From: Thelephora terrestris
Lineage: Eukaryota; Basidiomycota; Agaricomycetes; Thelephorales; Thelephoraceae
Assembly: GCA_015956445.1 (NCBI GenBank)
Contig: WIUZ02000002.1
Span: 2,046,001 to 2,110,000, forward strand
Direction: 5' to 3'
DNA: 64,000 bases
Position numbers and translations under genes: made by a program. Below the pieces are notes generated by a model. The model did not search any database. It was not told the DNA's origin and saw only the letters and a program-made list of their open reading frames with translations. Position 1 is the first letter of the stretch; each line of letters starts with the position of its first letter. Of the stretch, positions 2,226 to 31,654 are shown one piece after another.

Positions 2226-5159
2226 TGTCAGGGCCACTCTTCGCCCTTCAGGTACCAGTGCTGTTGGTGAGTCGCAACTCCAACCAACAAGAAACAATGG
2301 GGCAAAGGGGGAACGACTTCCCTATATCCACCCAAGGTCTACGTGGTCCAAAACGCGATGGACGAGCGTTCTCCGGTAGGTTGTCCGAATTCACAGCAGG
2401 AGTGCCGAGCCTCTATCAGGTAAATCCCTGTCGTCTTCTGAGGGCAGATACAGGAGCCCGAGGATGGCGCCTCAAACTGATGACTTGATCCAAAGAGCAG
2501 TGCGGAACTCGATGTCGTGTCCGAGCTCGCTTCAAACACCGGTTAAGGATCAAGACTGAGTGAGAGAGGAGAGCGAACGGTTCAAGGAGTTACTCGATAA
2601 GCTCTTCAGTGGCCTACAGCAAATACACCGATGCTGCAAGGAGAAGAGGACTTCCCGAGATATCAAAGATGGGGAGTCCTCAGCTACTCTACTGGTACCT
2701 ATATAGGAGAGTGGCCGGGACATGGATAACCCTATCTAATAATAACTCGGAGCAAGGAAGGGCCGAGAGTAAGCTGGAACAGTAAGCGGCCCGGGATGTA
2801 GAATAGAAATGATAAAGGAATGACTAATGGGTCAGGGTTCGTGAGAAAATAAGAAAGGGGTCATGACGTCGTGTGGGAAAGGAATGACAGAGGATAATAT
2901 CACATGCAAGGGCGAACCAATGAGGGGACGACGCGTCAGCTCGTCCGATCGGGACAACAAAGGACCGAGTGGGGCGCGTAGGTCGAAGGCGAATGTATGA
3001 GGAATCTGGACCGGTGAAACGATGGGCCGAGCCAATGGCGAATAGGGCGCGGGCGCTGTCGAGGGTCGAATAAAGCGTAGCGCGAACCGGCCATTGGATC
3101 CATCCAACTCCCTTCTTCCCAAATCAACAATCCCACCAACCAACTACTCATCCATTATGCCCATGATTTCCGATCGTGTCTTCCGTGCTGAGAACAGCAC
3201 CGCTACCATTGAGTCTGCGGATCCGCGCTCCGTACAGAACAAGAGTTACTTCCTTCCGAACGCCAACGTGGCGTACCCTAGTTATCGCGAGGTGCGACGT
3301 CACGTGTCGCTGTTTGCTGGCAACAACTGACATCGCATCGTAGATCTTCGCGGTTGCCGACAAGGTGGATGCTCGACAACTGGAGGCAACGATCGCCAGG
3401 CCTCCCCTCTATTTGACCATAGATGACGAGTTGTGGTATCACAACTTGATTGACCACAAGCTACAGGAGTCTATGCGCGGGGTCACGTTTGACACCGAGT
3501 TGCGTATGCCGTGGGAGACTCCGGTGGCGTCATCGTTATGGGGTCTCCTGAAGATGGGAATCTACGATCTGGGAAACGGTGAAGGAAGGTGGCCGGGAGC
3601 GACTCGTTCGCAACACTTTACAACAGCCGTTGGTCACCGTCTCTGGTTCCTTCTGAGGACCGAACAGAAAGCGGTGAGTCGGTCTGTGCATCCCGCTTGT
3701 GGGATAACACTGACAGGCTTGTAGAATGAGCGGCTGAAGCGTGAGGTGAAGGAGGCGAAGGATGATGCCCGTAGGATGTACTCGGAAGCGTTGGACATGA
3801 AGAAGACGCTGCTCCTGATGAACGATACGCTTCGCGTCACGTTTGAGAGCGAGATGCTGGCGATGCGTGAAGAACACAATCGGTTGGTCGAGTCCTTGAA
3901 GGACCGGGACGACACCATTCAACGAGACCTGATCGAGGTCGACCGACGGCTCAACCGTCATAGAAGGGCTCTGAATGAGCTCGACACCAAGGTCGGTGCG
4001 ACTTCTCCTGGTCTTTGTCCAAGAGAGCTCATGCCATTCCTAGGTCGATACGTTGGACGATGCTTTGCCGTTGTTGGGTGCTCGGGTCGAGTCGATGAGT
4101 GAGCGGTTGTGTCACTGCCGCACTCGTTCGGTGGCTGCGGTCCGCGACGAGTCCGAGGACGAGTCGATACCTGATCGGATGGCTTCTCCCATAGGTGGGA
4201 TGTCGGTTGACATATTTGGCTTGTCCACTGACATCTCTTTCTTAGCTTCCGATGGGTCGTACCGCACACCTGCGCATACTGATGGCGGGGGGGAGGTCGT
4301 TCGCGAGACGTCTGAGGAGACGGCCGTGAATCCGGTTAGCAGTTCTCCCGAGTTGGAGTACGCGGGGGAGAACGAAGTGGCTGTTCCGATTCCGCCTCCG
4401 TCGATCTCGCCGGTGCGTGGGCAACGTTCTATTCGTGCTCGTCGTTGGGTTCCTTATCGCGGGGCACTTCGTCCAGCGCACCGCATGCGTCCCAGTAATC
4501 CCAACGTTGTCCGTCAGGGTGGAGACATCGAATCCACCGTCCTATTCCGATGCGACGATGCTACAGTGTCGCGTGGATCGCGGCGAGCTGATTCCGGTGG
4601 AGTCCGTCGACGTGAACGGCTTAACCGACCTTACGCTCTTGTCGGTCCAGCGTGCAGCGGAAGCCGTTCGCCTGGTGGCTCAACTGACCGAGAGGGTGGA
4701 GGGTTGGTCAGTCCAGAGGACTCTGGATCAGACTATGGTCGATTCAGCGAGGAACCGCCTTCGCGCCGAGGTTCAGTTGGCCGTCGCTCATCGTCTGGAG
4801 GAAGCTCGGGTCGTCGAGATGGTCGACGAGGAAGTCGACGAGAATGCCTCGGAGGGGACGGAGGAGGAGGTTGCCAGTGCTGAGGAGTATTGGCAGACCA
4901 GGTCTTGACGACCAAGGTTTGTACGCCTTAGTCCTCGCTCATAGAGTCTGGGCGGATTCAACTCCGTCGGTTTGGTAGTCTCATGTCTTCGCCGCGCGCC
5001 TTGTGTAATATCATCAGTGTCCTTGTCTGTGTTCCTTGATGACGTGTGAGTCGTGATAAAGGAAATGATAAGATAAGAAAGGGGTATAGGTAAGGAAAGT
5101 GGGCGAAAGTTGGGTGTGAAAAACGGTTCAAAAAGGGAATAAAATTCAGCACGCTGACA
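2226..5159 (+). mobile_element. TGTCA element A1, complete, 5-bp target duplication CATAT
   Basis: A 2934-bp DNA element with ends TGTCAGGGCCACTC and ...CAGCACGCTGACA. It is flanked by the direct repeat CATAT at 2221-2225 and 5160-5164 and interrupts a seven-transmembrane pseudogene exon. Two more A copies lie at 19501-20601 (partial) and 28615-31649 (complete, TSD CTCAG), which fixes the ends independently. It carries one intact spliced gene on + (3157-4908). On - there is a TATA-like CTATATAGG around 2698-2707 facing the left end, followed by the remains of an outward frame. There is no transposase-like sequence, so it is probably mobilised in trans. The perfect TSD and open gene suggest a fairly recent insertion. 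The superfamily is not certain; the ends do not fit hAT, Tc1/mariner or CACTA elements. Confidence 0.88.
3157..4908 (+). CDS. element A1 coiled-coil acidic protein, 494 aa, six exons
   Basis: Unrecognised protein with an intact predicted frame: exons 3157-3291, 3344-3673, 3725-3991, 4044-4194, 4246-4505 and 4567-4908 keep phase through five GT-AG introns (50-61 bp) and give 494 codons plus TGA context at 4908. Order: N-terminal MPMISDRVFRAENS; a helical block with DDELWYHNLIDHKLQESMRG; a long charged coiled coil (LKREVKEAKDDARRMY to LNRHRRALNELDTK); a short C-H-C motif (RLCHCRTR); a proline/acidic middle; a second helical block (AEAVRLVAQLTERVEG, RLRAEVQLAVAHRLEEA); and an acidic end EEYWQTRS. 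The gene of element C2 is clearly homologous in the DDELW block and coiled coil, and the A3 copy agrees exon for exon except for intron 4, which A3 lacks. A structural or DNA-binding accessory role in transposition is only a guess. Confidence 0.72.
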
Positions 5160-5869
5160 CATATCAGGAACATTCAAGATGCCCTGGGGCCTTCAGCCGG
5201 AGTTGGTGGATTGTACACAGCCATTATTGCCATGCTTATCGAGTCCCATGCTCCTTACGCCATCTATTTCCTACTCTATATTGGACCGCGGGCTACCAAC
5301 AGTCCCATCCAGTATATCTTCTCCCCGATCCTTTGCGAGATGCAAGTGAGTGCCGTTCTGGCATTTTTATGATACACCACGATTCCGGAAGAGAATTTCC
5401 GACCATACTTGTTTATAGGTCATCGCTCTGTTCCTCATAATTCTACGGGTAGCCAACCGAAGAGCACTGACAAGCAACATGATCACCGGGACCACTGGTT
5501 CGATCCAATTCGTAAGTGAAGGGGGGTCAATGGAAGACAACGGGACACTTACCAATTGGGACCATATGCGCTCAATGGAGACAACTAGCGAGACTCCCAG
5601 CGCGGTTGGGGTTGGGGCAGAGAATCCCGTCGAAGCAATTTTATCATGACAGGGTTTAATGGGGAAAACAATAACTAGTATTTCAAGTCCCAAACAGAGT
5701 CGACGAGTGGTGATGAGAAATATTCTGAGGGGAGCCACACGGGAAGAATGCAGAGGCTTAGGAAGTCCATGGAGCCCCTTCAGCTATCTTTTCTCCATGG
5801 GTCATGGGCCATACATCGTGACAATTCTCCATGGGTCATGGGCCATGCAACGTTGTACAACCCATGACC

Positions 5870-6330
5870 CATGGGAAATAGATAGGTATCCGTCGCCCAT
5901 GCCCCATGGGTTGTACAATGGTATATGCTGCCCATGCCCCATGGGTTGTACAACGCTATCCACTCTCCATGCCCCATGGGTTGTACAACCCTATCCGCTC
6001 TCCATGCCCCATGGGTTGTACAACCCTATCCGCTCTCCATGCCCCATGGGTTGTACAACCCTATCCGTTCCCCATGGGGCATGGGTTGTACAACGTGATC
6101 CGTTCCCCATGGGGCATGGGTTGTACAACACTATCCGTTCCCCATGGGGCATGGGTTGTACAACACTATCCATTCCCCATGGGGCATGGGTTGTACAACG
6201 CTATCCTTTTCCCATGCCCCATGGGTTGTACAACACTATCCATTCCCCATGGAGCATGGGTTGTACAATAGCATCTTGTGCCCATGGGGCATCAGTTGCA
6301 CAATGGTGTCCTTTCTCCATGTCCCATGTA
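5870..6330 (+). repeat. 35-bp minisatellite with nested palindromes
   Basis: About twelve tandem units with an exact 35-bp period: the ATGGGTTGTACAAC word falls at 5941, 5976, 6011, 6046, 6081, 6116, 6151, 6186, 6221 and 6256. Each unit joins two dyads, CCCATGGG-like and TTGTACAA, to a spacer CNCTATCCNYTCYCC. Units alternate between CATGCCCCATGG and CATGGGGCATGG forms. A few units of the same word recur inverted at 7742-7870, in the other arm of the palindrome. The array is open in several frames only because 35 bp rotates the phase; no coding role is supported. Confidence 0.85.
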
Positions 6331-6570
6331 TTGTATCACTATTCCAGGAAAGGAGATACTTCATAAATCAACCATCATAAGAGGTCCTTTATGGACAACC
6401 AACAGGAAACACTTAATGAGTTACATAACAAACTGTGTGACTTTGAAAAAATCAAACTCTGTTTGTATGCATGATAGACCACATATCAGTTTGTGGCTCT
6501 AACCTGACCCAATGTAAACCTGACCCATGACCCTAAGCTTAACCTAATTCTGAACCTGGTCTAATCCCAA

Positions 6571-6752
6571 ATCTCACCCTAACCTAACCTAACCTAACCT
6601 AACCTAACCTAATCTGACCTGAACCTAAACCTAACCTAACCTAAACCTAAACCTGACTCAACCTCAACCTAACCTAACCTAAACCTAACCTAACCTCAAC
6701 CTCAACCTAACCCAAACCTAACCTAACCTAAACCTAACCTAACCTAACCTAG
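6571..6752 (+). repeat. telomere-like CCTAA array (left arm)
   Basis: Runs of CCTAA and CCTAAA separated by occasional CCTCAACC variants. Read on the other strand this is TTAGG/TTTAGG. The usual basidiomycete telomere is TTAGGG, so this is a telomere-like satellite and not a canonical chromosome end. It is mirrored at 7399-7612. Confidence 0.8.
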
Positions 6753-7398
6753 TATGGGCAAACCTAACCCACCTATCATCTCCTATTTCAGCCTAATGTC
6801 ATATATACCAGCCAAAACTAACTTCACCCAGTTGCAAACATATGACTTGGGTCACAGGACCATAAAGCAAACTGCAGTCCCCTCAGTCTGTGCTCAACCA
6901 TCCCATAGGCCCACAGACCCACATATATATCATCAGCAACCCAGCAACATGTTTGTCACCAATGCTCAACCACAAACCACCCTCACCCTTTGTTCTGTGC
7001 CATCTCACAGACAAACCATAACTCAAGCTCATCCACCTCATTGGGCCCACAAGCAAGTGGCCTACAAACATATAGTTTATAGACCTATAACATAGTCTAC
7101 AAAAGGATTAATATGGGTGGGTGAGCTAGAGTTATGGTTAGGCTTTAAGATAGCACAGAACAAAGGGTGGGAGTGGTTTGGGGTTGAACATGGGTGACAA
7201 ACTTGTTGCTGGGTTGCTGATGATATATATGTGGGTCTATGGGCTTATGGGATGGTTGAGCACAGACTGAGGGGACTGCAGTTTGCTTTATGGTCCTGTG
7301 ACCCAAGTCATATGTTTGCAACTGGGTGAAGTTAGTTTTGGCTGGTATATATGACATTAGGCTGAAATAGGAGATGATAGGTGGGTTAGGTTTGCCCA

Positions 7399-7612
7399 TA
7401 CTAGGTTAGGTTAGGTTAGGTTAGGTTTAGGTTAGGTTAGGTTTAGGTTAGGTTAGGTTTAGGTTAGGTTTAGGTTGAGGTTAGGTTAGGTTTAGGTTAG
7501 GTTAGGTTGAGGTTGAGTCAGGTTTAGATTTAGGTTAGGTTAGGTTTAGGTTCAGGTCAGATTAGGTTAGGTTAGGTTAGGTTAGGTTAGGTTAGGTTAG
7601 GTTAGGTTAGGG
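7399..7612 (+). repeat. telomere-like TTAGG array (right arm)
   Basis: Mirror image of the array at 6571-6752: GGTTA pentamers with TTTAGG variants. The copy number is slightly higher than in the left arm, as expected if the two arrays have drifted by slippage since the palindrome formed. Confidence 0.8.
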
Positions 7613-8649
7613 TGAGATTTGGGATTAGACCAGGTTCAGAATTAGGTTAAGCTTAGGGTCATGGGTCAGGTTTACATTGGGTCAGGTTAGAGCCACAAAC
7701 TGATATGTGGTCTATCATGCATACAAACAGAGTTTGATTACCGTTGTACAACCCATGGGGCATGGGCAACAGATACCTATTTATTTCCCATGAGTCATGT
7801 GTTGTACAATGGTATCTTTTCTCCATGGGTCATGGGTTGTACAACACGTTGTACAACGTTGCATGGCCCATGACTCATGGAGAAAAGATAGCTGAACCCT
7901 GTGGTCCATGGTATTGGGGTTGAGGACACCATTGGCGGAGCTCCGTTGTGACTGATCTGGGGGCCTCGAAGGCTCAATACCTCGCTGCGGTTGGATTTCC
8001 ACTGAGGAGGACATTGAGCAAAGCGGTGATCAAATAGTATGAGATGCCGAAGTTGGATATGGCTGTGTAGTTCAACAGAGTGGTGACCCGCAGTGAGCTT
8101 TGGTAGACAGATGCAATACCCGTCACCATATTGAAAGCATGAGCCAAGGATTTCACTTTTGGCTTGCAGATGAGTCTGTGATGATTTCGCCGTTTACCCC
8201 CTTTTTATTTCCTTTATTTAACGTCTCATCACCACTAAGTCAGTTGGTGCCCTGCCCTAAACATGGCGGTAAACTGTTTATTATGCAATATGCCCTATGC
8301 TTAACGACTCAAAGTCCAATACGTGGAATGTGCTACTAGTCAAGATACCCCAGAAGACCCGAGGTATAATACGTGAACATGTACCGGCGGACCTTAATAC
8401 GAAGATCTCCCCTACCTGGCCCTCCGTTGCCCCTGAACGACCCTGAACGACTAGTAGATATTCAGGCTACCAACAACAAGGGATGTATTAATAAGTGACG
8501 CGCGTTGACCTCTCGCAGAAGTCAACCGGCTTATTAATCTGACCCTTGGATTGGACTTACGAAAACCATTATGTTTTACGACTCATGGATCATGCACAAA
8601 AAGACAAGAAAGAAGATTAATTCCAGGAGCCACAATACAAAAGAGTTAT

Positions 8650-9904
8650 CTAATCAATATCTCTGTGGATCCTTTGTATTGCCTCCAAGGCCGTCCTCAC
8701 CAACTCCTCATTCGCCCAGTTCTGCTCTCGGATCTCATTTGGGTCCACGTCCGACAGGTCCCCGTAATCTGGAAGTTCGGTATCAGAGTTTGGTTCCGAG
8801 TCAGGAACGAACTTGGCATACAGATCGAACTCCAGAGCCGGCCACCGGTTCCTCGGCAAAGTCGTATCCGTAACTGTGATCAAAGGAGTCATTCTCCTAC
8901 GAGGAACAGGAGTGTTCCTACGAACAACTCCGACATTCCTGTAGAACTCCTCCAAGTGGATCTCAACGACCTCATCATCGATAGGAACCAACCTGTTCTC
9001 ATACTGGACCACCAAACGAGCAGGCAGAGACTCGGCCCGCTCCGGAATCGGCAACTCCTCTTCCTCCACTCGAACCTCCGGCTCGCTGCACCTCCTCTGG
9101 AGATCCCGGACTTCTCCGGTCAACTCGGAGACACGACGAGTAAGGCGGACCTAAAGGAATAGGGTTAGAAGATATCAAAAACCTTCAACCCCTACCCCTT
9201 ACCTTATCGTCCTCCAATTCTCCGGTCTTATTAATCAGACCACGGACCAAGTCCTTCAACGTGATCACCTCTCCCTAAAGAAAGTTTGGATTATAAGGGT
9301 CAATTACTCCCGACCCAAACTTTCTTACCTGCAGCCTGTCAATCGCCATACCCTATTGTTCTTGCTCATCTTCGATCTTCAACATTCCCTCATGATACCC
9401 AAGCCATTCCTTCTCCAACTTCTCAATCTCTTCGCGACGACCATCAACTCGCTCATTTACATGAGCTATCTCGTCCATCAACGTAACGCCGACGTTGCTT
9501 GTATGAACAACGCTAGCATCAAGGACCGAGTTGAAGGTTTCGTTCGTTTCAGTAACAAACTCAACACCACAACCCAAGAGTTCAGCCGTATAGAGATTGG
9601 TCTCGATCCACACCAACTTACGCCGAGACACCCTCCGAGAAGCCTGGATAAAGTCCCTGAATCCTAAAAGGAGTTAGTTCGCTTTCCTAAATCGGAATGC
9701 GCAACCAGACCCCCCACCTAAGTCGGTAAACCCTTCCTCAGGGTCAGCGGTGGCAGAACGGTCCAAGACATTCCCCAAAGTAGGATAGGGACGAGCCCTG
9801 TTATCATGAGCATGGGTAAAGCGGTTGATGTTGAAGTTACTCTCCTGAACAGGAGAGTTGGAAGTGGAACGACGAGTGGGAATATGAGTAGAAGTATGAG
9901 GCAT
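8650..9904 (-). pseudogene. element B1 coiled-coil protein gene, one stop
   Basis: Counterpart of the B2 gene at 25204-26465. It begins MPHTSTHIPTRRSTS and keeps the same exon order: N-terminal exon, an exon with RRVSRRKLVWIETNLY and the helical VTLMDEIAHVNERVDGRREE, a short exon, and a C-terminal acidic exon ending ALEAIQRIHRDID. In place of the CAG codon after EDEQEQ in B2 there is TAG (near 9353), so the frame is interrupted. The first intron has a different sequence from B2's intron at the same position, whereas the second (9275-9328) is conserved with its hairpin. Function unknown. Confidence 0.65.
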
Positions 9905-10334
9905 GTTGGCTGTGTGTAACAAAGGTGGGTTTGTTGAGAGACTCAGTCATCCAACCCCCTTTGGTTATATACCAAATGCCACACCCCTTCCACGACTCAG
10001 GAGTTGAGTCATCTTTTCTATTGTTTACTGCGCATGACCCACATGACATCATATGCCCCTATTCTTAGTCATATGCTCCCCTTTTGCCATTGGCTGTTAG
10101 TCAGCCATACCCACATTCCTTCCGAACATTCTCAGGATACGTCATGCTTTGTAACTGCTTTGTAATGCTCTCAAATTGCTATTGGCCGCCACACTTTCGT
10201 TTATCAGCTGATAATTTGTAGCATTAGTCACCACGTAAAGCACAGACCATGCAGTGCTGTGCACGGACCATGTTTGTCTGTGTTTGTATCATTAGTGTAG
10301 TTACATGTCGCTGTCACGTCACAAATCTAAGTAG

Positions 10335-10342
10335 TATATATA
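10335..10342 (+). promoter_or_regulatory. outward-facing TATA box of element B1
   Basis: TATATATA facing the TGTCAGG end, about 257 bp from it, divergent from the element's own gene. The same box recurs in B2 at 24767-24774 on the other strand. No ATG lies between it and the element end, so any transcript would be non-coding or would read into flanking DNA. Confidence 0.45.
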
Positions 10343-10699
10343 CTCGGAGTAGTTTAGCTTGTACTCTTTAGATTTGTTATCATCAGACTCTCCGTGACCT
10401 CTACTGCTGTGTGCTAAAGAGCAAGAGTATCTGAAGAACCTTGTCTCCTTCTTTCTCCCCCTCTCTAATCTAGTCTGTGAAGAGACTTCCGATATCCCTG
10501 GGTTTGCAACAGGGTTATAACTGTGTGTTTGACCCCTGAGTGTGATAGGCTTGGATAGCAAGAGTGCTATTGAACTGTAGAGGTTGCGTCGGCCTGACAG
10601 AGTCGAGCACGCACCCAACGAAGCAAGAAACACCAAGCCTGATAATGTAATGGCCCAATAGTTCATAGCATAAATAACAGAACAGTGATAGTGCTAGAT

Positions 10700-11283
10700 A
10701 TACGGGCAGCCGAGTTGAACACAGAACAAACCAAAAGGCCATCACCCAGCCAGTTGTTCATGAAGGTCATAACAGCAGGAACAACACTGATCCCCTTGTG
10801 CAAGATGTGAAACTGATACCTGATAGGTCCAGGGGGCATCAGGTTGCTGGGTGAGGTGTATCAAACACAGAAAATAATTTGTATTTATGAGCCTGACTGA
10901 AATAGGGTCAGAAACCGGGGCTGTTGGGGAATTTGTGGCAAGGCAGGCATTGGGCATTGCCAAAACAGGTGGGGACAATGGTCTACACCGAAAGGGGCAG
11001 AGGGTTTCCCTACTGCAGAGAGGTAACAGGGATCCCTTGTGTCTGGGCATTGTGATCATGCTAAAGGAAGTCCAATGCACAAGAATGAGCCCAACAGGGA
11101 TCTGCATGGTGGGATGCACACCATGGTGGGTCCCTAAGTTCAACAAAGGAATGCAACCATACAAATTTTTGTAAACACCACATTCTTGGGAAGTGGGCAA
11201 TTTGTACATCAGTATATGGCTGTAGAACCACCATGAGTAACTCCAGGTGCTGAGGTTGGTCACGAGGGGTGGAAAATGTGGGG
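10700..11283. other. no recognisable gene
   Basis: Stretch between the second seven-transmembrane relic and the tRNA array. Short open frames on both strands (up to about 200 codons on -, which runs through the tRNA repeat) show no motif and no codon-level conservation. I see nothing further in it. Confidence 0.4.
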
Positions 11284-11297
11284 AAGGTGGCGAAAAA

Positions 11298-11408
11298 TAG
11301 CACCTGTAGGATTCGAACCTACGCCCCCACAGGGTAGAAGATTTCAAGTCTACACCCCATGAGGAGCAGATTTCAAGTCTGCCACCTTAACCTCTCAGCC
11401 AAAGTGCC
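11298..11408 (-). tRNA. tRNA-Ser(UGA)-like gene with duplicated anticodon/variable arm
   Basis: On - it begins GGCACTTTGGCTGAGAGG and ends with acceptor strand AGGTGCT plus A, which pairs over 7 bp with GGCACTT. The A box (TGGCTGAGAGG) and B box (GGTTCGAATCC) are intact, and TTTTT follows the 3' end as a Pol III terminator. The T stem is GTAGG/CCTAC. The anticodon loop CTTGAAA (anticodon TGA) on stem GCAGA/TCTGC is followed by a short variable-arm sequence. Then a second copy of anticodon loop (GTAGA-CTTGAAA-TCT) and variable arm (ACCCTGTGGGGG) follows 29 nt later. Either the gene carries a 29-nt intron-like insertion, or it would make a serine tRNA with two anticodon arms. Length is 111 nt against about 83 nt expected. 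Confidence 0.7.
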
Positions 11409-11487
11409 TTGGATCTGGGGTCGAGTGCATAGCCCATGTGTCATTGCAGAGTAGCTCCCCAAGCACATGGGAGAAGGTGGCGAAAAA

Positions 11488-11598
11488 TAGCACCCGTAGG
11501 ATTCGAACCTACGCCCCCACAGGGTAGAAGATTTCAAGTCTACACCCCATGAGGAGCAGATTTCAAGTCTGCCACCTTAACCTCTCAGCCAAAGTGCC
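11488..11598 (-). tRNA. second tRNA-Ser(UGA)-like gene, same duplicated arm
   Basis: Tandem copy 190 bp from the first, with the same A box, B box, duplicated anticodon module and oligo-T terminator. It differs visibly at the acceptor side (GGGTGCT instead of AGGTGCT), which turns one A-T pair into G-T. Confidence 0.7.
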
Positions 11599-11677
11599 TT
11601 GGATCTGGGGTCGAGTGCATAGCCCATGTGTCATTGCAGAGTAGCTCCCCAAGCACATGGGAGAAGGTGGCGAAAAA

Positions 11678-11737
11678 TAGCACCCGTAGGATTCGAACCT
11701 ACGCCCCCACAGGGTAGAAGATTTCAAGTCTACACCC
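11678..11737 (-). pseudogene. truncated third tRNA-Ser copy
   Basis: Keeps the 3' half (terminator, acceptor strand, B box, variable arm, second anticodon copy) and stops at TACACCC, where unrelated sequence begins. The A box and 5' half are missing, so it should not be transcribed as a tRNA. Confidence 0.75.
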
Positions 11738-12088
11738 ACATCATCAGAAAATTTACCAATCTGCTGATTGTGCTGAACTCAGCACAAATTAGCATCAATT
11801 AGCACAGATTAGCACAGATCAGCATGTTAAGCATCAACATGAAAAGCATAGAGCCCTTTTGTTCAGCATTATCTTCAAAATTTGCACTTTGTTGCATAAA
11901 GATGCTGATCAGTGCTTAATGATGCTGAACAGTGCTTGGCCAAGCACTGTTCATCATGTGGAAGACTTGAGATCCTCACCAGTCCAGTTTCCATGCAAGG
12001 TCAACACACCATCACTTTCTCAATATTAAAGCTGAAATAAACCTGTCAGGGTTGTAGGCCTGCTTACTGTTTGTGGGGCGCTAGAGGA

Positions 12089-12688: not shown

Positions 12689-12834
12689 ACACTGGCAGGA
12701 GGATTCCTGCTAGAATGAGTCAGAAGTAGTAAGGCGTGAGGAGAATTCCTCAGCTTACTTTGTTTATTCAAGTTGTGGGTAGAGGAGTACAGAAGAGATT
12801 GAGAATGGGGAAAAGAAAGGAGCGAACGCTCTTT

Positions 12835-12842
12835 CTTATATA
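12835..12842 (-). promoter_or_regulatory. TATA box for element D outward gene
   Basis: TATATAAG on -, about 150 bp upstream of the ATG at 12688. Together with the + box at 13229-13236 it makes a divergent promoter region between the two D genes. Confidence 0.5.
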
Positions 12843-13228: not shown

Positions 13229-13236
13229 TATTTAAG
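13229..13236 (+). promoter_or_regulatory. TATA-like box for element D coiled-coil gene
   Basis: TATTTAAG on +, about 90 bp upstream of the ATG at 13328. The run between is pyrimidine-rich, as in many fungal leaders. Confidence 0.45.
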
Positions 13237-21273: not shown

Positions 21274-22857
21274 TGTGATGATTTCGCCGTTTACCCCCTT
21301 TTATTTCCTTTATTTTACGTCTCATCACCACTAAGTCAGTTGGTGCCCTGCCCTAAACACGGCGGTAAACTGTTTATTATGCAATATGCCCTATGTTTAA
21401 CGACTCAAAGTCCAATACGTTGAACAGGGGGTCTTCTAGGGGAGCTCCGTGGTGGCAGAGGATCAAGGCCCAGAGAGTTCCTGTGAAGGTGGGTCCTAGG
21501 TTGTACAGTGTCAAGGAACTCCAAGCAGCGACTGGGGAACAGTTGCGAAGAAAGCGCGAAGGTGGAGATACCAGAAGAGAGCTAGAGACAAAGCAAGAAA
21601 AGCAGAGAGATCGCGAGAGTTCCGAAAGAGTTCTGAGGGGTTCCGAAGGGAAGATTCAACGAGGGGAGCAGAGAACACTAGGAGAAGACACTGAGGAAAG
21701 CAAGAAGACACTGGGGACGACGAGGGGACTAGAGCAAAGCTTCAGACTAGGAGGAGGGGAACATGGCTGACTGGACTTCAATAGGATGGAGCGCAATTAT
21801 CTCCAGAGTAGCTAGTACAGGATATATATACTAAGGTCTGCTCTGAGAAGGATCCAGAGAAGAAAGGAGGGAAACTGCGAAATAGGGACCTATGATGCAA
21901 TGGTGAAGTCATAGGGGAAGAGGAGAAAAGGGGAAAGCCATCATGAAAGGGGAAAGTCATCATAAAGGGGGGAACTAAGCAAAGGGGAAAGTCTTCTGGA
22001 GAAGAGGAAGCTCCGGCGAAGGAGAGGAAGCTCCAGCAAAGAGGAAGTTTGCAAAGAGGAAGCTCTGGTGAATAGGAAGCTCTGGCGAAGAAGAAGAAGT
22101 TCCGAAGGAGGTTCCGAAGGTTCCGAAGGTTCCGAAGGTTCCGAAGGTTCCGAAGGGGAGGAAAAGCGAAGAGGAGGAATGAGGACTGAGGACAGCAAAC
22201 CTCAGAATCCCACATCCCCAGAACTGGAGGCACTACAACGTGGAACATGTTGCTAGTCAAGATACCCCAGAAGACCCGAAGTATAATACATGAACTGTAG
22301 CGGCGGATCCTCTTACGAAGATCCCCCCTACTTGGCCCTCCGTTGCCCCTGGACGACTAGCAAATATTCAGGCTACCGACAGCAAGGGATGTATTAATGA
22401 GTGTCGCGCGTTGACCGCTCGCAGAAGTCAACCGGCTTATTGATCTGACCCTTGGATTGGACTTATGAAAACAATTATGCTTTACGACTCATGGATTACG
22501 TGCAAAAGAATAAGAAAGAAGATTAATTCCGGAAGCCATCGTACAAAAGAGTTATCTAATCAATATCTCTGCGAATCCTCTGTACTGCTTCCAAGGCCGT
22601 CCTCACCAGCTCCTCGTTTGCCCAGTTCTGCTCCCTAATCTCGTTCGGATCTACACCGGACAAATCGTCATAACTAGGGAGCTCCGTGTCAGAGTTTGAT
22701 TCCGAGTCAGGAACAAACTCGGCGTACGGATCAAACTCCAGAGCCAGCCATTAGTTCCTCGGCAAAGTCATATTGGTAACCATGATAAGAGGAGTCAACC
22801 TCCTACCAGGACGAGGAGTATCCCTACGGACAACTCCAACGTTCCAATAGAACTCCT
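21274..22857 (-). mobile_element. TGTCA element B3, fragment
   Basis: Begins with the B-type terminus TGTGATGATTTCGCCG at 21274. It matches B1 and B2 through the untranslated end region and the last part of the gene (C-terminal acidic exon, complement of about 22560-22857), where it is cut by the end of element C2. A solo LTR (21421-22237) is inserted in it. The coding part differs from B2 by small changes and is incomplete. Confidence 0.75.
21421..22237. mobile_element. solo LTR (LTR retrotransposon), 817 bp
   Basis: Interrupts element B3: the B sequence CCAATACGT...GGAACATG is split by a TG...CA unit (TGAACAGGGGG to GGCACTACA) flanked by ACGT at 21417-21420 and 22238-22241. It is strongly purine-rich on + and holds about five short GGTTCCGAA repeats near 22100-22160. 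The flanking repeats look whole, and there is no internal region, so it is a solo LTR left by recombination. It is younger than B3. Superfamily not determined. Confidence 0.65.
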
Positions 22858-25138
22858 TGTCAGGAACATGGTATTTTTCAACTTTTATAACACGCTCTTT
22901 CTTCGAACTCTTCTTACCACTTCTTATGTTTTGAATGCTTCACACTCCTTATCTTTCACACCAATCATTCAAAACACACAACGCGCATACATTCACGACA
23001 ATACGGAACAACAAGGCTATACTATGCTTATACAATGTCCTCAAAAGTCAACTCGATCTACGGCAGGCCTCATGGTCATCAGCGTTCCATCTCGGAGATT
23101 GAAGAACCGGCCCCTCCTTGCAAGGATCTCTTCGAACATGGCGTCACCATCTTCCACGCTCAACTGAACCTCGAGTTCAAGCCGATAGGAAGAGATACCT
23201 TCGAGCGGACCGATCAGCCTCCCAGATGTCACCGAACTGCTGAACACCTGGTCCCACATCTCCATCACTGGGTGAGTGCTCGGCAGTGCTGTCGACATAG
23301 TCGACGAGCAACCCTCCATCTCCCTCGTCGGACCCCTGGGTGGGATCCTGTCTTGCGAGTTGAAGCTGGTGGTGAAGCTGGATCTCCGACTCAACCTGTC
23401 GGTAGGGACGGTGGACCTGATATCGGTATCCTCGTTCCGCATCTCGACCAGACTGGTCACCATCCGACTCAACTGGACGCGGGTAGGGATTAGAAGAAGG
23501 CGCCATGCGATGAGCAACACAGCGTCGAGAGCATTTACAACGCTGCCCTGTTGTCACCGGACGTACCTCAATGGCCCTCGGAACATCTTCAGCCTGGTCA
23601 ACCTCCATGACCTCATCCTCGATCTTGACCAGCTGACTGATCGGCTGCAACGGGCAACGCCGACAGTTCTCCTTGTTGGACTCAGCCAGAGTGGAAGCCG
23701 GAGCCGGAGTCGGGACAGGAACCACGTTCTCGATCGGAGGTGTCGCGTAGGACGACGGATTAGGCGATGGGAGTTCCACCTCGTCGGCGTACTCCAGCTT
23801 GAACGGGACGTCGGCAGTCCCCTGCCCAACCAAGATGGGACCTTCCTTACAGTTGCAGGTCTTGTCCTGCAAGGACGCCACCTGCGCTGTCAATACGGCC
23901 ACCACGTCCTCGAGTTGTTCAGTCTAGAAGAAGTCTCTCAGTCATTGCATAAACCAGCAAAGGCTGAAAGAACCTTTTCATCCCTCCTAGCCAACGCGCC
24001 CTTGATGTTGTTATCCCTGACCTTTAGCCCGGCGACCAACTCTTGATGGTTGGCAACCATCGCCTCCAACGCCTCGTTTGTCCCCTGCTGGAAGGTGGCC
24101 AGAGTCTCCTTCATAAGAAGACCCTCCGCCGACAGACGAAGGACGTCTGCCTTCGCCTCCTTCACCTCGCGCTCTAAACGTTCAACCTAGGCAGTTTGGT
24201 TAGTCGAGAGTCATACTCGAATATCCAAATGGAAAACCTACTCGGCTTTCCCCCTCTCGAATGAGCGACCACAACAGCGTGGTGGAAGCAGTGGCATGGC
24301 GGACGGCCCGAGGAACGGTTGCCCCGTGCTCCAACAGGTCCTGATCGTAGATCCCCCTCTGAAGGGTGTACCAGAGCTCCTTCTTGATCGGATGCTCCAG
24401 CTCCCCGAACCTACCCCTCATCTGGAAGATCACCTTCTCGGCGATCATGGACCGGACCCAGAGCTCATCGTCCCAGGTCAACCCCATCAAATGTGGGATC
24501 GTCTCCCTGATGTCAGGCCGACGCGACCTCTACAGTTCAATAGCACTCTTGCTATCCAAACCTATCACACTCAGGGGTCAAACACACAGTTATAACCCTG
24601 TTGCAAACCCAGGGATATCGGAAGTCTCTTCACAGACTAGATTGGAGAAGAGGAGAAAGAAGGAGACAAGGGTCTTCAGGCACTCTTGCTCTAAGCACAC
24701 AGCAGTAGAGGTCACGGAGAGTCTGATGATAACAAATCTAAGGAGTACAGGCTAAACTACTCTGAGTATATATACTACTTAGATTTGTGACGTGACAGTG
24801 ACATATAACTACACTATGGATACAAACACAGACAAACATGGTCCGTGCACAGCACTGCATGGTCTGTGCGTTACATGGTGACTAATGCTACAAATTATCA
24901 GCTGATAAACGAAAGTGTGGCGGCCAGTAGCAATTTGAGAGCATTACAAAGCAGTTACAAAGCATGACGTAGCCTGGGAATATTCGGAAGGAATGTGGGT
25001 ATGACTGACTAACAGCCAATGGCAAAAGGGGAGCATATGACTAAGAAATAGGGGCATATGATGTCATGTGGGTCATGCGCAGTAAACAATAGAAAAGATG
25101 ACTCAACTCCTGAGTCGTGGAAGGGGCGTGGCATTTGG

Positions 25139-25145
25139 TATATAA
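25139..25145 (+). promoter_or_regulatory. TATA box of element B2 gene
   Basis: TATATAA about 65 bp upstream of the ATG at 25204; the same GGTATATAACCAAA context is present in B1 on the other strand near 9965. Confidence 0.55.
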
Positions 25146-25203
25146 CCAAAGGGGGTTGGATGACTGGGTCTCTCAACAAACCCACCTTTGTTACACAGCC
25201 AAC

Positions 25204-26465
25204 ATGCCTTGTGCTCAAACTCGTGTTCCCACTCGTCGTTCTTCCTCCTACTCTCCTGTCCAGGAGAACAACTTCAATATTGATTGCTTCTCTCATGCTT
25301 GTCGGGATGCTTCCCGCCCTTATCCCACTTTGGGAAACGTCATGGACCGGACCGCCACCGCCGACCCTAATGAGGGTTTTACCGACTTAGGTTCGGGATG
25401 CCGGTTGACATATTTAGCATGTCTGCTGACGTTCCGCTTTAGGATTTAGGGATTTCATCCAGGCTTCTCGTAGGGTGTCTCGGCGCAAGTTGGCGCACAT
25501 CGAGACAAACCCTTATGCGACCGAACTCCTTAATAGGGGTGTCGAGTTCGTCACTGAGACCAACGAGACCTTCAACTCAGTGTTGGAGGCCAGCGTTATC
25601 CATACGGGTAACGTTGGGTCCATGTTGATGGATGAGATAGCTCATGTCAATGAGCGAGTTGATGGTCGTCGCAAAGAGATCAAGAAGTTGCAGAAGGAGT
25701 TCCTTGGATGCCATGAAGGCATTTTGAAGATTGAAGATGAACAGGAGCAGCAGGGTATGGCGATCGATAGGTTGAAGGTAAGAAAGTTTGGGTCTGGAGT
25801 AATTGACCTTTCTAACTCAAACTTTCTTTTAGGGAGAAGTGATCACCTTGAAGGACTTGGTTCAGAGTCTTGTTGCGAAGACCGGAGAATTGGAAGACGA
25901 TAAGGTACGGGGACTGGGATCGAAGATAATTGTCGTCTTCTAACCCTGTTCCTTTTAGGTCCGCCTTACTCGTCGTGTCTCCGAGTTGACCAGAGAAGTC
26001 CGGGATCTCCAGAGGAAGTGCAACGAGCCGGAGGTCCAAGTCGAAGAAGAGGAGCTGGAGGTTCCGTATCGGGCCGGGTCGCTGATAGTCCCTAACCGGG
26101 CTGAGTCGCCGCCCGCTCGTTTGTTGGTCCGTCATGAGAACAGGTTGGTTCCCATTGATGATGAGGTCATCGAGATTGGGAGTGACGAATTCTATCAGAA
26201 CGTAGGAGTCGTCTGTAGGGACACTCCTCGTCCTGAGTTCGTTTCTACTCCTTGGGGTAGTCGCCGTCAATGGCCTGCTCTGGAGTATGATCCGTACGCC
26301 GAGTTCGTTCCCGATAGTGAACCAAACTCTGATACGGAGCTTCCAGATTACGATGATTTGTCGGACGTGGACCCAAACGAGATCCGGGAGCAGAACTGGT
26401 TGAATGAGGAGTTGGTGAGATCGGCATTGGAAGTAGTACAAAGGATCCGCAGAGATATTGATTAG
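25204..26465 (+). CDS. element B2 coiled-coil acidic protein, 366 aa, four exons
   Basis: Exons 25204-25390, 25443-25777, 25833-25904 and 25959-26465 keep phase and give 366 codons. The start MPCAQTRVPTRRSS follows a TATA box at a normal distance. A basic stretch RRVSRRKL leads into a long helical region (MLMDEIAHVNERVDGRRKEI, KKLQKEFLGCHEGILKIEDE), a short exon GEVITLKDLVQSLV, the helix VSELTREVRDLQRK, and an acidic C-terminus (VPDSEPNSDTELPDYDDLSD) ending EVVQRIRRDID. No known domain. It is not obviously homologous to the A/C protein but has the same plan of helices followed by an acidic tail. Intron 1 (25391-25442) closely resembles intron 4 of the A1 gene; intron 2 can fold into a hairpin. 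A role in transposition or silencing evasion is speculative. Confidence 0.7.
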
Positions 26466-28122
26466 ATAACTCTTTTGTACTGTTGGCTTCCAATGAATCT
26501 TCTTTCTTGTCTATTGCGCGTGATCCATGAGTCGTAAAGCATAATGATTTTCATAAGTCCAATCCAAGGGTCAGATTAATAAGCCGGTTGACTTCTGCGA
26601 GAGGTCAGCGCGCGACGCTTATTAATACATCCCTTGTTGTCGGTAGCCTGAATATCTACTAGTCGTCCAGGGGCAACGGAGGGCCAGGTAGGGGGGATCT
26701 TCATATGAAGGTCCGCCGGTACATGTTCACGTATTATACCTCGGGTCTTCTGGGGTATCTTGACTAGTAGCATGTTCCACGTATTGGACTTTGAGTCGTT
26801 AAGCATAGGGCATACTGCATAATAAACAGTTTACCGCCATGTTTAGGGCAGGGCACCAACTGACTTAGTGGTGATGAGGCGTTAAATGAAGGAAAATAAA
26901 AGGGGGTAAACGGCGAAATCATCACACCTGAGACGTTCGGCGTCCACCTTCTTGACGACCTCCAAGATCTAGAAGCCGTTAGCTTGACAACAACGCCAAA
27001 AGAACGAACCTCTACCTAGAGGAAGACGTTAGTGCAAGCATAAGAAGCCCTAGATCTCCCCCATACCTGGTCATCAGTGGTATAGGGAACCCCCGCCTCA
27101 TTGGCATAGGTCTTACGGTTGGCGGCACGACGGTCGATGCGAGAGATGGTGGAGATACCATTGGCGACTTTGTAGGTATGGTTGTTGGGGAAAGACATTT
27201 TGGTAAGATGATGGGGAAGTTGCTGGTGTTGCTGATCAAGGATGGCTCCAAGAAGACGTCCTTCTTATAGCCTAGATCGGTGATCCTTCACATGACCTAC
27301 CTCAATGAACCTCATTGGTCCGGGTCACATCAACTTCCGCCCCTGTACCATCATCGTTGGCTTACTACATCAAGCTGACACCTCGGCCCGCGGGACGGCC
27401 TTGGAAGAACTTCGTTCCGGAACGCCTAGAACGCGTGCGCACTAAAAAAAATAGGTCTCAAGACCCTGATGACCCCTTCATAACATCACAAACCCCTTTT
27501 TACGACTCCCCATGACTTTACGATTACGACCAACCCTGGACCCTGATCACACACGTGAACAGTCACATCACAGTCTCCTAACCAGAGGAAGGAATCGCTG
27601 TTATTCGGAAGAAGTGCCCTAGACTCCTTTTGTTTAGCTCAGCGAATGTGGAAGTAGCCGTTAGCGTGAAACACCGGCGAATCTGTAATCCCTCATGTCC
27701 CATGAGTCTAGGCCCGACCTCCTCATGTTCGGACGTACGTTGAGGTTGCCACTAGTCCGTGATGCTGTTACCGCCTACAGACAACAAGGGATGCTGAATG
27801 GTCTCTATCTTTGGCCTCTCCAAAGGAAGCATCCAAGAAGATTCTCACCTAGCCCTTGGGTGTGATCCCCAGGAACGAACTTTCATGACCCCATGCCCCT
27901 ATTTCTTTTAGGACTAGTGTTATCGTTACCCCTATGTTTCATGCAGACATTTGTTAACTTTTATGCAGTCCTTCACACGCTAGTAAGGCCCTTTGTCCTT
28001 TATTCTCCCACGCGTCATACTTGTTCGCTTCCCTTACTTAACATTCTTACACTCCTTATCTCCCTTTGTTTTCTCTTGATAAGGGTATATTAGGGTTACT
28101 GACGTCATGGCCACTCTAGTAG

Positions 28123-28130
28123 TATATATA
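28123..28130 (+). promoter_or_regulatory. outward-facing TATA box of element C2
   Basis: TATATATA about 446 bp from the left terminus (28576), divergent from the C2 gene. The identical stretch is kept in C1 (about 20890-20897). No long ORF follows it. Confidence 0.4.
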
Positions 28131-28869
28131 GAAACTGTGGCTGTATCGTAGTACCTTAGTTTTGTTACCTCAGGAAATCCTCTGCCCTTCTTAGCCCAGT
28201 TGCAGTTAAGGTCAAGTCGGAGTGTTCTGTTTGAACACAAGACATCCCCATCTGCTCTCCCTCCTGCTCTGCACGTCGGCTGCGCCTCGTAACTATAGAA
28301 CCCCAGCGTTCATATTAGAACACCTCAAGCGTCCAGTCGATCACCTGGTGGAGTCATCAATCCTGTTGTAGGGATAAACCCTTGCTTGTTAAATCGAACG
28401 AAGTACGGTTTAGGTTGGGTTTCCCTTTAGGATTTCGACCTGACTTGTAGTGACCTCAGACAACCTACCGGAAGAATAGAGATGCGATCGTTCTCTCACA
28501 GGCTAGTTGGACTAGTGAGTACTCTGCGGAGTCGGCTCAGTGCACTGGTAGTTGTTGGGGTAGAGCGGCCCTGACAGAAGTCACCATCACCAGGTGAGGC
28601 AGGGCCCAGCTCAGTGTCAGCGTGCTGAATTTTACCCTCTTTTTGAACCATTTTCACACCCAACTTTTGCTCACTTTCCTTACCTATATCCCTTTCTTAT
28701 CTTATCAATTTCCGTTATCACGACTCCCACGTCATCCAAAAGGCACAGACAAAGACACAGATGATATTATACCGGGCGCACCCACGACGAAGACACAAGA
28801 CGACCAACCGACGGAGTTGAATCCGCACGGACTCTATGGACGAGGACTAAGGCATACAAACCCTAGTCA

Positions 28870-30726
28870 TCAAGACCTAGTCTGCCAGTACTCCTCAGCA
28901 CTGGCAACCTCCTCCTCCTCCATCCCCTCTGAGGCACTCTCGACGGTTTCCTTGACGACCATCTCGACGACCCGAGCTTCCTCCAGACGATGAGCCACGG
29001 CCAGCTGAACTTCGGCGCGAAGGCGGCTCCTCGCTGAATCGACCATAGTCTGATCCCGAGTCCTCTGCGCTGACCAGCCCTCCACTCTCTCGGTCAGTTG
29101 AGTCACCAACCTCACGGCCTCCGCTGCACGCAGGACCGACGAGAGCGTAAGGTTCATCAACTCATTCACGTTGACGGACTCTACCGGGATTAGCTCGCCG
29201 CGATCCAGGCGACACTGCAACATCATCGCGTCGGAATAAGACAGTGGATTCGATGTCTCCTCCCTGTCGGACGACGTCGGGATTACTGGGACACATTCGA
29301 TGGGCTGGACGACGAGCACCGTTGTAAGGAACCCATCGACGGGCACGGATGGAACGCTGTCCACGCACCGGAGAGATTGAAGGAGGCGGAACCGGAATGG
29401 CCACCTCGTTCTCCCCTGCGTACTACAACTCGGGCGAACTACTAACCGGGTTAACGGCCGTCTCCTCGGACATCTCGCAAACGACCTCCTCTCCGCCATC
29501 GGTACGCGCCGGCGTGTGGTACGAACCGCCAGAGGCTGGCGAAGCCATCCTGTCCGGGATTGACTCGTCATCGGACTCGTCACGAACGGCCGCCACCGAA
29601 CGAGTACGGCAATGGCACAACCGCTCGCTCATGGATTCGACCCGAGCACCCAGCAATGGCAAGGTGTCATCCAACATATCAACCTAGAAGTGGAATGAGT
29701 TCCCTCAGTCAAGCACAGGGGAACATCACACCAACCTTGGTGTCCAACTCGTTCAAAGCCCTTCTATGACGGTTGAGCCGTCAGTCGACCTCGATCAAGT
29801 CCCTCTGTATGCATCAGAATAGGTGGCAGCGACATTATTCGTTGATTATTTCACCTTATTCACCTTTTCCTCAGTTATTTCGTGATTGTTTGATGTAGGT
29901 CAAAAAATTAGGTAAAGAATAACCTCAAATAATCACAATAACCTCGTGCCACCTTTTCTGATGTGGTGTCGTCTCGCTCCTTCAGCGACTCGACCAGTCG
30001 GTTGTGTTCCTCACGCATCGCCAACATCTCGCTCTCGAACGTCACACGAAGCGTGTCGTTCATCAGGAGAAGCATCTTCTTGGTATCCAGCATCTCCGAG
30101 TACATCTTGCGGGCATCATCCTTTGCTTCCTTCACCTCGCGCTTCAAACGCTCATTCTACAAGCCAATCAGTGTTATCCCACAAGCGGGATGCACAGATC
30201 GACTCACTGCTTTCTGTTCCGTCCGCAAAAGGAACCAGAGACGGTGACCAACGGCTGCTGTGTAGTGTTGGGAGCGAGTAGCTCCAGGCCACCTTCCTTC
30301 GCCATTTCCCAGGTCGTAGATTCCCATCCGCAGAAGACCCCACAACGCTGACGCCACAGGAGTCTCCCATGGCATGCGCAGTTCAGTATCGAACATCACC
30401 CCACGCATCGACTCTTGCAGCTTGTGGTCGATCAAGTTGTGGAACCACAACTCGTCATGTATGGTCAGATACCTGGGAGGGCTAGCAATCGTCGCCTCCA
30501 GTTGACGAGCATCCACCTTGTCGGCGGCTGCGAAGATCTGCGAATGCGATGTCAGTTGACGCCAACAACCGGCGTGCGCGTGACAACGCGCCTCTTGATA
30601 ACTGGGGTACGCCACACTGGGAGCGGGAAGGAAGTATCCCTTGTTCCCTACGGATTGTGGATTCGCAGACTCGACGGTAGCAGTGCTGTTCTCAGCACGG
30701 AAGACGCGATCAGAGATCATGGGCAT
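28870..30726 (-). pseudogene. element A3 coiled-coil gene, disrupted by a MITE
   Basis: Starts MPMISDRVFRAENSTATVES at 30726 and parallels the A1 gene exon by exon to EEYWQTRS (stop at 28870). The coiled-coil exon is split by the 152-bp insertion at 29812-29963. Intron 4 of A1 is absent: the reading RMASPASGGSYHTPA is continuous, which shows intron gain in A1 or loss here. Elsewhere the frame looks maintained. Confidence 0.65.
29812..29963. mobile_element. 152-bp MITE-like insertion
   Basis: AT-rich insertion inside the A3 coiled-coil exon, absent from A1. Terminal inverted repeats CATCAGAATAGGTGGCA and CATCAGAAAAGGTGGCA match at 16 of 17 positions. The interior is non-coding. The target duplication is ambiguous (TG or ATG). 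Confidence 0.7.
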
Positions 30727-31177
30727 GGTAGGATGAGTAGTTGGTTGGTGGGAATGTTGATTTGGGAAGAAGGGAGTTTGATGGATCCAACGGCCGGTTC
30801 GCGCTACGCTTTATCCGCCCACTGACAGCGCTCGCGCCCTATTCGCCATTGGATTGGTCCATTGTTTCACCGGTCCAGACTCCCCATACATTCGCCTCGA
30901 CATTCAAGCCCCACTCGGTCTTTTGTTATCCCGATCGGACGAGCTGATGCGTCGTCCTCCTATTGGTCAGTCCGCACATGTGATATTATTCTTTGTCATT
31001 CCTTTCCCACACGACGTCATGACCCCTTTCTTGTTCTCTCACGAACCCTGACCCATTAGTCATTCCTTTGTCATTTCTATTCCATATTCCGGGCCGCTTA
31101 CTGTTCTGGCTTACTCTCGGCCCTTCCTTGCTCCGAGTTATTATTAGATAGGGTTATCTCTGTCCCAGCCACTCTCC

Positions 31178-31185
31178 TATATAAG
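31178..31185 (+). promoter_or_regulatory. outward-facing TATA box of element A3
   Basis: TATATAAG facing the TGTCAGGGCC end, about 85 bp upstream of the conserved 88-codon frame. The equivalent site in A1 (about 2698-2707) reads CTATATAGG, and A2 has a similar word near 20132. Confidence 0.5.
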
Positions 31186-31269
31186 TACCAGTAGAGTAGC
31201 TGAGGATTCCCCATCTTTGATATCTCGGGAAGTCCTCTTCTCCTTGCAGCATCGGTGTATTTGCTGTAG

Positions 31270-31536
31270 GCCACTGAAGAGCTTATCGAGTACCTCTTTG
31301 AACCCGTTCGCTCTCCTCTCTCTCTCGGCCTTGTATCAAGAATCGGCGAACGCGCTTACGAAAAGGAGTTCCTCGTCGCTCTCTTGATCAAGCAACGGTT
31401 TGAGGCGCCATCCTCGGGCTCTTATATCTGCCCTCCGACGACGAAAGGGATTTGTCAGATAGAGGCTTGGCACTCCTGCTGTGAATTCAGACAACCTACC
31501 GGAGAACGCTCGTCCATCGTGTTTTGGACCACGTAG
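31270..31536 (+). CDS. outward ORF of element A3, 88 codons, start not found
   Basis: Begins after a TGTAG acceptor-like site with ATEELIEYLFEPVRS, continues RIGERAYEKEFLVALLIKQR and SGSYICPPTTKGICQIEAW, and ends RSSIVFWTT at the same stop as in A2. Between A2 and A3 most differences are single residues with no frame damage over 88 codons; A1 keeps only the C-terminal half. No ATG was found, so the gene model is incomplete. Unknown function. Confidence 0.38.
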   Translation, partial: ATEELIEYLFEPVRSPLSLGLVSRIGERAYEKEFLVALLIKQRFEAPSSGSYICPPTTKGICQIEAWHSCCEFRQPTGERSSIVFWTT

Positions 31537-31654
31537 ACTTTGGGTGGATATAGGGAAGTCGTTCCCCCTTTGCCCCATTGACTCTTGTTGGTTGGAGTTG
31601 CGACTCACCAACAGCACTGGTACCTGAAGGGCAAAGAGTGGCCCTGACACTCAG

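Follow-up and report, generated by a model that had tools for sequence, protein, structure and literature searches.

Six mobile insertions with both ends visible, designated A1, A3, B1, B2, D and E, were recognised in a 64,000-nucleotide stretch of the Thelephora terrestris genome (GenBank assembly GCA_015956445.1, contig WIUZ02000002.1, positions 2,046,001 to 2,110,000; hereafter the window, in whose coordinates all positions are given). We infer from their sequence that they are probably giant long terminal repeats (LTRs, 2.3-3.3 kb) of several LTR-retrotransposon families, each complete copy being solo. A gene lies antisense to the predicted LTR transcript in A, B, D and E, and the genes of A, B and E are spliced. 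The LTR assignment is drawn from minimal inverted repeats, TG...CA ends, 5-bp duplications and a promoter directed toward one end with an R-U5-like stretch behind it, from the lack of any recognised enzyme among the Pfam matches to the element proteins, and from a core promoter common to ordinary-looking LTR-like neighbours. Since the layout is the U3-R-U5 plan, copies with their own duplications are most simply read as solo LTRs.

Insertions, target-site duplications and promoter layout

Self-comparison of the window revealed two repeated families with sharp edges, A (A1, A3 and the partial copy A2) and B (B1, B2 and the partial copy C), together with a repeated block (20604-21272 and 27835-28501) corresponding to the promoter and U5 part of a third type, E. 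The fragment C and E are nested within a cluster spanning 19.5-31.6 kb. Four sequence types had been counted in a first-pass annotation of this DNA; the number stands, and the membership is now A, B, D and E, C being a B-type fragment and A and E being homologous by protein. The elements, with their target-site duplications (TSDs), promoters and genes, are as follows.

A1, 2226-5159, minus strand: 2934 bp, read as a solo LTR; TSD CATAT (2221-2225 and 5160-5164); U5 end at 2226
A1 TATA box (TATATAGG), 2698-2705, minus strand: promoter toward the 2226 end, 480 bp away
ACGTCA site: about 160 bp upstream of the A1 TATA box
A1 gene, 3157-4908, plus strand: antisense to the LTR; exons 3157-3291, 3344-3673, 3725-3991, 4044-4194, then from 4246; TGA at 4908
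B1, 8177-10599, plus strand: 2423 bp; TSD GAGTC; TAGTATATATA at 10332, toward the 10599 end
B1 gene, 9904 to about 8650, minus strand: one in-frame stop
D, 12044-14336, minus strand: 2293 bp; TSD AAACC; single copy
D open frame, 13328-14065, plus strand
D divergent TATA box (TATATAAG), about 12842, minus strand
A2, 19519-20601, plus strand: A-type 3' part (U5, promoter, exon 1), cut at 19519 by LTR-like sequence
E2, 20602-21273, plus strand: fragment (promoter and U5) from a second E-type element; interrupted by C
C, 21274-22857, plus strand: B-type fragment, first letters TGTGATGATTTCG; holds an 817-bp insert at 21421-22237; truncated by E at 22858
E, 22858-28576, plus strand: about 3.3 kb without B2; TGTCAGGAAC...GGCCCTGACA; TAGTATATATA at 28120; flanks CTCCT and GAAGT
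E gene, 23041-27198, minus strand: homologue of the A gene, four introns in the model, interrupted by B2
B2, 24511-26926, minus strand: 2416 bp; TSD CCTGA; inside an E exon; TAGTATATATA at 24767-24777 (minus strand), toward the 24511 end
B2 gene, 25204-26465, plus strand: exons 25204-25390, 25443-25777, 25833-25904 and 25959-26465; 366 amino acids, fully open (splice model)
A3, 28615-31649, plus strand: 3035 bp; TSD CTCAG; TATA box at 31178
A3 gene, from 30726, minus strand: broken by a 152-bp insert at 29812-29963

Perfect 5-bp duplications bracket A1 (CATAT), A3 (CTCAG), B1 (GAGTC), B2 (CCTGA) and D (AAACC), that is, five of the six elements with both ends visible; for LTR retrotransposons, duplications of 4-6 bp are the norm. 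These are the insertions that the first-pass annotation had listed, and all were recovered by a scan for TGT(C/G)A...T(G/C)ACA pairs with equal flanking 5-mers, which returned nine pairs, the other four not lying on any repeat edge. The ends of A1, A3, B1 and B2 were set independently, where homology between copies stops, and all four duplications match, each having a chance probability of 1/1024. Because these ends are defined by between-copy homology, the four duplications are independent tests and not the product of chance. D is a single copy whose ends were chosen by their motif; 0.18 chance duplications were expected among 184 TGTCA/TGACA pairs spaced at 1.5-4 kb, and three were found (A1, D and A3). 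D is thus likely an insertion with a true duplication, a weaker case than the other four.

In-silico excision of B2 together with one CCTGA restores the E exon, and VDAERLRETIPHL aligns gap-free with VDARQLEATIARP of A1. This is the one site of five properly checked as an empty site. Excision of A1 with one CATAT gives an open frame reading ...MIVTRLVLHIRNIQDALGPSAGVGG..., and the join retaining both CATAT copies is also open, in a shifted frame, so that the A1 empty site was dropped as proof of clean insertion. This frame resembles fungal membrane proteins, the host peptide joined across the site is without a Pfam match, and the A1 site is only suggestive. For the flanks of B1, A3 and D, a frame for judging the empty site was not obtained.

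The six elements have TGT...ACA ends, with TG...CA termini and a short inverted repeat in every case. One terminus reads TGTCAG, or TGTGATG in B and TGTCACG in D, and the opposite terminus ...CCTGACA, which refines the TGTCAGG reported at first pass and preserves its TGTGATG variant in B. The terminal inverted repeat measures 6 bp in A1 and A3, 3 bp in B1 and B2, 5 bp in D and 7 bp in E, its sequence being TGTCAG in A, only TGT in B and TGTCAGG in E.

Along the strand of the TATA box, one order is common to A, B, D and E: 5' terminus, opposite-strand gene, intergenic stretch, TATA box, 264-799 bp, and ...CCTGACA. The TATA box and the ATG are about 430-490 bp apart in A, B and D, and 926 bp apart in E. 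A divergent TATA box facing one end, in line with the promoter noted at first pass, is present in all four types, and the predicted RNA polymerase II promoter points to the CA end, i.e. in U3-R-U5 order. The 11-mer TAGTATATATA occurs exactly six times in the 64 kb (0.00 expected), namely in B1, B2, E, E2, the 817-bp insert in C and an LTR-like sequence at 18219-19518, and points to the CA end in all six copies. As B1/B2 and E/E2 are copies, these represent four independent sequence families (B, E, the 18.2-19.5 kb sequence and the 817-bp insert), between which the window self-comparison revealed no similarity.

Two of the carriers of this 11-mer are neighbours of the elements rather than members of their families. 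The 817-bp insert (21421-22237) has TG...CA ends, a 4-bp duplication ACGT and its own TAGTATATATA, and is probably an ordinary solo LTR. The sequence at 18219-19518 has LTR-like TGTCGG...CCGACA ends and a G-rich tract directly upstream, and cuts A2 at ACGTG. No pol domain was found next to it by Pfam in six frames of 14337-18217, and a Gypsy pol remnant suspected by eye at 17.1-18.2 kb is not claimed.

The first-pass annotation had interpreted the insertions as a superfamily of terminal inverted repeat (TIR) DNA transposons and had named KDZ/Plavaka-type enzymes as first candidates for their mobilisation. Inverted repeats limited to TGTCAG in A and TGT in B, and a promoter toward the CA end, which is an LTR trait, speak against that class. 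A related proposal would be one of non-autonomous TIR elements that hold a gene, either captured or accessory, and depend in trans on a DDE transposase that duplicates 5 bp. We regard this as unlikely: the inverted repeat of B is only 3 bp long, the core promoter of B and E is common to LTR-like sequences, and a divergent TATA box toward one end with a long stretch behind it, of no evident use in a DNA transposon, is left unexplained, even though partial inversion of the ends is seen (TGTCAG in A, TGTCAGG in E), Pfam detects no enzyme in the element proteins and introns would persist naturally in such elements.

The duplication length bears on the same proposal. According to the excerpts consulted of PMC12730594, Plavaka elements have TSDs of 2-3 bp and TGT..ACA or CATCA..TGATG ends, and among KDZ elements the TSD is 7 bp in Kyakuja and 8 bp in Zisupton. 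The 5-bp TSD is unlike either, and assignment to Plavaka (fungal CMCT) or KDZ (Kyakuja, Dileera, Zisupton) was rejected on this ground. Some DNA transposons do have a 5-bp TSD, namely hAT5, and a span of 2-5 bp is given for the CMCT clade (PMC12730594, same excerpts); hAT5 agrees in TSD length, whereas the six element proteins are without a transposase match and the inverted repeats are only 3-7 bp. The ends, the 5-bp duplication and the lack of a transposase are all accommodated if a retroviral-type integrase acts on an LTR element. The more general view expressed at first pass, of mobile elements with related ends that need an enzyme from elsewhere, is upheld.

Antisense genes and their divergence

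Only the B2 gene is plainly fully open. B1 has one in-frame stop, and A3 is disrupted by its 152-bp insert; this insert has the ends CATCAGAA...TTCTGATG, which resemble those published for PlavakaB (PMC12730594, same excerpts), and an apparent 2-bp duplication TG. A1 had been described at first pass as fully open along with B2, and for A1 this does not hold, since no convincing splice site was found for its last coding joint, near the 3' end. Intron 4 of A1 (4195-4245) is read through by the splice model, which gives A1 three introns, and was taken as an intron because A3 is without it. The frame of the A1 tail is nevertheless the conserved one: the ratio of nonsynonymous to synonymous divergence (dN/dS) is 0.28 over 129 codons, whereas the other frames give 0.59 and 1.4. 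The A1 and E proteins are related (blastp 2e-29; 35% identity in alignment), and their genes have three intron positions in common, all of phase 0; in this comparison E intron 1 was given a donor earlier than that of the splice model, the acceptor being unchanged. The coding status of D is suggested by its open frame and the common layout in a single copy, one alternative frame having only two stops.

The proteins consist of a helical N-terminal part, a predicted coiled coil and an acidic tail. The tail, attributed at first pass to every type, was found in A1 and B2 (net charge -11 and -13 within a late 60-residue stretch). A Pfam search with six element proteins, two of them partial (matches taken up to E = 1, most of those above 0.1 being dropped by the filters), reached no curated cut-off and returned neither a transposase, in keeping with the first-pass annotation, nor a DNA-binding domain. 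A profile search against the PDB gave one match, at E 0.53, and nothing usable. Homology of B or D to A/E was also sought and rejected, the best blastp match of B to A/E having an E value of 0.041 and hhalign giving probabilities of 0.5 and 1.1.

Purifying selection has acted on the A and B genes, as the earlier remark that the encoded proteins are maintained had implied. By the Nei-Gojobori method, with gapped codons skipped, dN/dS is 0.06 over 291 codons of exons 1-4 in A1/A3 (one stop codon dropped, the segment running one codon into intron 4), 0.11 for 53 codons (one dropped) from the middle of A, and 0.21 for 356 codons (two dropped) in B1/B2. The B-type tail compared with C gives 0.15 (B2) and 0.10 (B1) over 91 codons, two dropped in each case.

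This selection, and the fact that four sequence types keep one layout, could suit a self-contained new class of element whose movement requires the coiled-coil protein itself in addition to an integrase of host or retroviral type. We consider such a class very improbable, given that the proteins are without a family match (Pfam, PDB profiles) and that selection on the gene is equally expected for a regulator inside an LTR. Chance copying of unrelated host genes into ordinary solo LTRs, the protein having no role in the element, can be given hardly any weight: A, B, D and E agree in antisense position and divergent layout, the genes of A and E have a common ancestor (35% identity), and dN/dS is 0.06-0.28 by region in A and 0.10-0.21 in the B-type pairs. 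Gene capture is admittedly common in mobile DNA, and the B and D proteins are unrelated to A/E by profile comparison.

Genes and backbone have not diverged in step. Substitutions at the three codon positions number 29/293, 16/293 and 92/292 in A1/A3 and 64/358, 42/358 and 122/358 in B1/B2. Third positions thus differ by 32% and 34%, respectively, whereas non-coding sequence differs by only 10-12% in A and 4-7% in B, so that the third-position difference is 2.5 to 3 times the non-coding one in the A pair and 5 to 9 times in the B pair. The pattern was rested on raw third-position counts because the Nei-Gojobori dS overstates divergence where transitions dominate. In B the drop in identity starts near the ATG (39/40 just before it, 23/40 to 33/40 soon after) and ends about 80 bp past the stop, while C is 91.5% identical (420/459) in 3' non-coding sequence and 78-79% in the coding tail. 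Intron identity is 94% in one intron and 65-79% in two in A, and 91%, 75% and 40% in B. Homogenisation of the backbone by recombination, with retention of old gene lineages, is more likely than an unusual constraint on it.

An introner-like pair of introns was also observed in unrelated genes, namely A1 intron 4 (4195-4245) and B2 intron 1 (25391-25442). They have GGGATG(T/C)CGGTTGACATATTT in common and are 84% identical over 43 bp, these being the only two copies in the window; B1 has a dissimilar intron at the position of B2 intron 1.

Putative life cycle and known counterparts

If the elements are LTRs, the full element would comprise gag-pol between two of them. RNA started at the TATA box of the 5' LTR would run through U5 into the internal region and be reverse transcribed, a retroviral-type integrase would insert the copy with a 5-bp stagger, and recombination between the LTRs would then leave a solo copy. 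Given the antisense orientation of the gene, its introns would not be introns on the genomic RNA, would not be spliced out and would survive each cycle. A simple origin can be envisaged in which the polypurine tract, and with it the 5' edge of U3, shifted beyond an antisense accessory gene; once part of U3, the gene would be copied into both LTRs. Our best guess for the protein is a trans-acting regulator of the LTR promoter, since the protein gene and the promoter share an intergenic region and the protein combines a helical part, a coiled coil and an acidic tail.

More tentatively, the elements may represent a class of fungal LTR retrotransposons with a complete spliced regulatory gene in U3, of which a full element would hold two copies and a solo LTR would be a free-standing, promoter-equipped gene. 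Gene and backbone would evolve separately, different gene versions being swapped into a homogenised backbone.

Several observations weigh against a retroelement origin of the insertions. All complete copies are solo, and no intact copy with two LTRs in a direct pair was found by self-comparison of the window. No primer-binding site, polypurine tract, reverse transcriptase or integrase of these families was identified, and the six-frame Pfam search, which covered 14337-18217 and no other part of the window, gave no match. E has both ends visible and unmatched flanks (CTCCT and GAAGT), possibly because recombination, following the insertion of C and E at this place, gave it the right end of the older E copy (E2). 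The A and D families have TATA boxes other than the TAGTATATATA 11-mer. Searches with the A, B, A+E and D proteins in viral_contigs and with A+E in genome_contigs, neither of which is a collection of fungal genomes as such, found no relatives, and two LTR end patterns had no match in viral_contigs. A regulatory role is not helped by the lack of a DNA-binding domain in Pfam, nor by an AlphaFold model of A exon 2 (three sequences; four helices) whose confidence score, a pLDDT of 51.5, was too poor for a fold search. Finally, neither an LTR with a full spliced gene nor a conserved spliced gene inside an LTR was found described in print among the literature matches listed, as represented by titles and the first lines of abstracts.

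Retroelement genes expressed from, or lying in, an LTR are represented by HBZ of human T-cell leukaemia virus (HTLV) and sag of mouse mammary tumour virus, sag being sense and the HBZ coding sequence lying mostly outside the LTR. The following comparisons draw on excerpts of the cited articles. An antisense promoter is present in the 3' LTR of HTLV (PMC7264820). Closer parallels are the antisense accessory open reading frames (aORF-3R) of plant LTR elements, such as Grande gene23, RIRE2, Retand TRP28 and PvRetro13 (PMC7264820, PMC11963269), which likewise are antisense to the retroelement transcript, inferred in the present case. Grande gene23 has its own promoter (PMC7264820), and the aORF-3R proteins are of obscure function, have Smc-type domains in some cases and are suspected regulators (PMC7264820, PMC11963269). 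The plant gene lies between pol and the 3' LTR (PMC7264820, PMC11963269), whereas here it is inside the putative LTR, and Pfam TRP28 (PF04195) has no match in the six element proteins under the limits given above. Among fungi, Boty-like elements of Botrytis cinerea have an antisense gene, brtn, according to the title of Zhao et al. 2011, and an 'additional ORF' according to PMC8365987; the likeness to this LTR retrotransposon is drawn from these descriptions.

Size and ends also have precedents. Retrosat2 of rice has an LTR of over 3.2 kb with the ends TGTCACACCC-GGGCGTGACA, of the form TGTCA...TGACA as here, and its solo LTRs outnumber full elements (PMC3485330). LTRs of about 3 kb are common to Retrosat2, RIRE3 and RIRE8, which differ from the present elements in an extra ORF0 upstream of gag-pol, not in the LTR, and in inverted ends of 10 bp (PMC3485330). 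The Helenus terminal-repeat retrotransposons in miniature (TRIMs) are fungal LTR elements with 5-bp TSDs, some families being known from fragments and solo LTRs only, and differ in carrying tRNA-like sequence in their LTRs (PMC10886601). Assignment to a Helenus-type TRIM was rejected because the elements are without tRNA: Rfam at the gathering threshold, weaker matches not being sought, detected none in them, and tRNA only at 11298-11598, outside the elements. Antisense accessory genes of LTR elements are already known in plants and Botrytis, and long LTRs and solo LTRs are ordinary.

Neighbouring features and significance

Other features of the window include a 35-bp minisatellite (CCATGGGGCATGGGTTGTACAAC...) at 5791-6370, with related sequence at 7742-7845, and a large palindrome at 6450-7739 (1.3 kb, self-complementarity about 89%), each arm of which contains long CCTAA/TTAGG runs. 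A tandem 190-bp repeat with tRNA genes occupies 11279-11741, with two Rfam matches at the gathering threshold and one partial copy; ARAGORN, unlike Rfam, found no tRNA there. A 680-amino-acid open frame at 51949-53991 (minus strand) has a STAND-type NTPase and TPR repeats. A Fungal_trans domain is present in the window and the introns are fungus-like, both of which point to a fungal source.

If the LTR interpretation is right, what appeared to be an orphan superfamily of DNA transposons would become a set of LTRs of novel organisation, in which a conserved gene with introns forms part of the LTR itself, and the antisense placement would account for introns outlasting reverse transcription. Repeat annotation could misfile such elements as TIR transposons, or as host genes without assigned function. 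Solo LTRs are usually taken for dead promoters; those described here would be surviving genes that could control their own family or host genes, and they could act in trans on the family after the element itself has gone.

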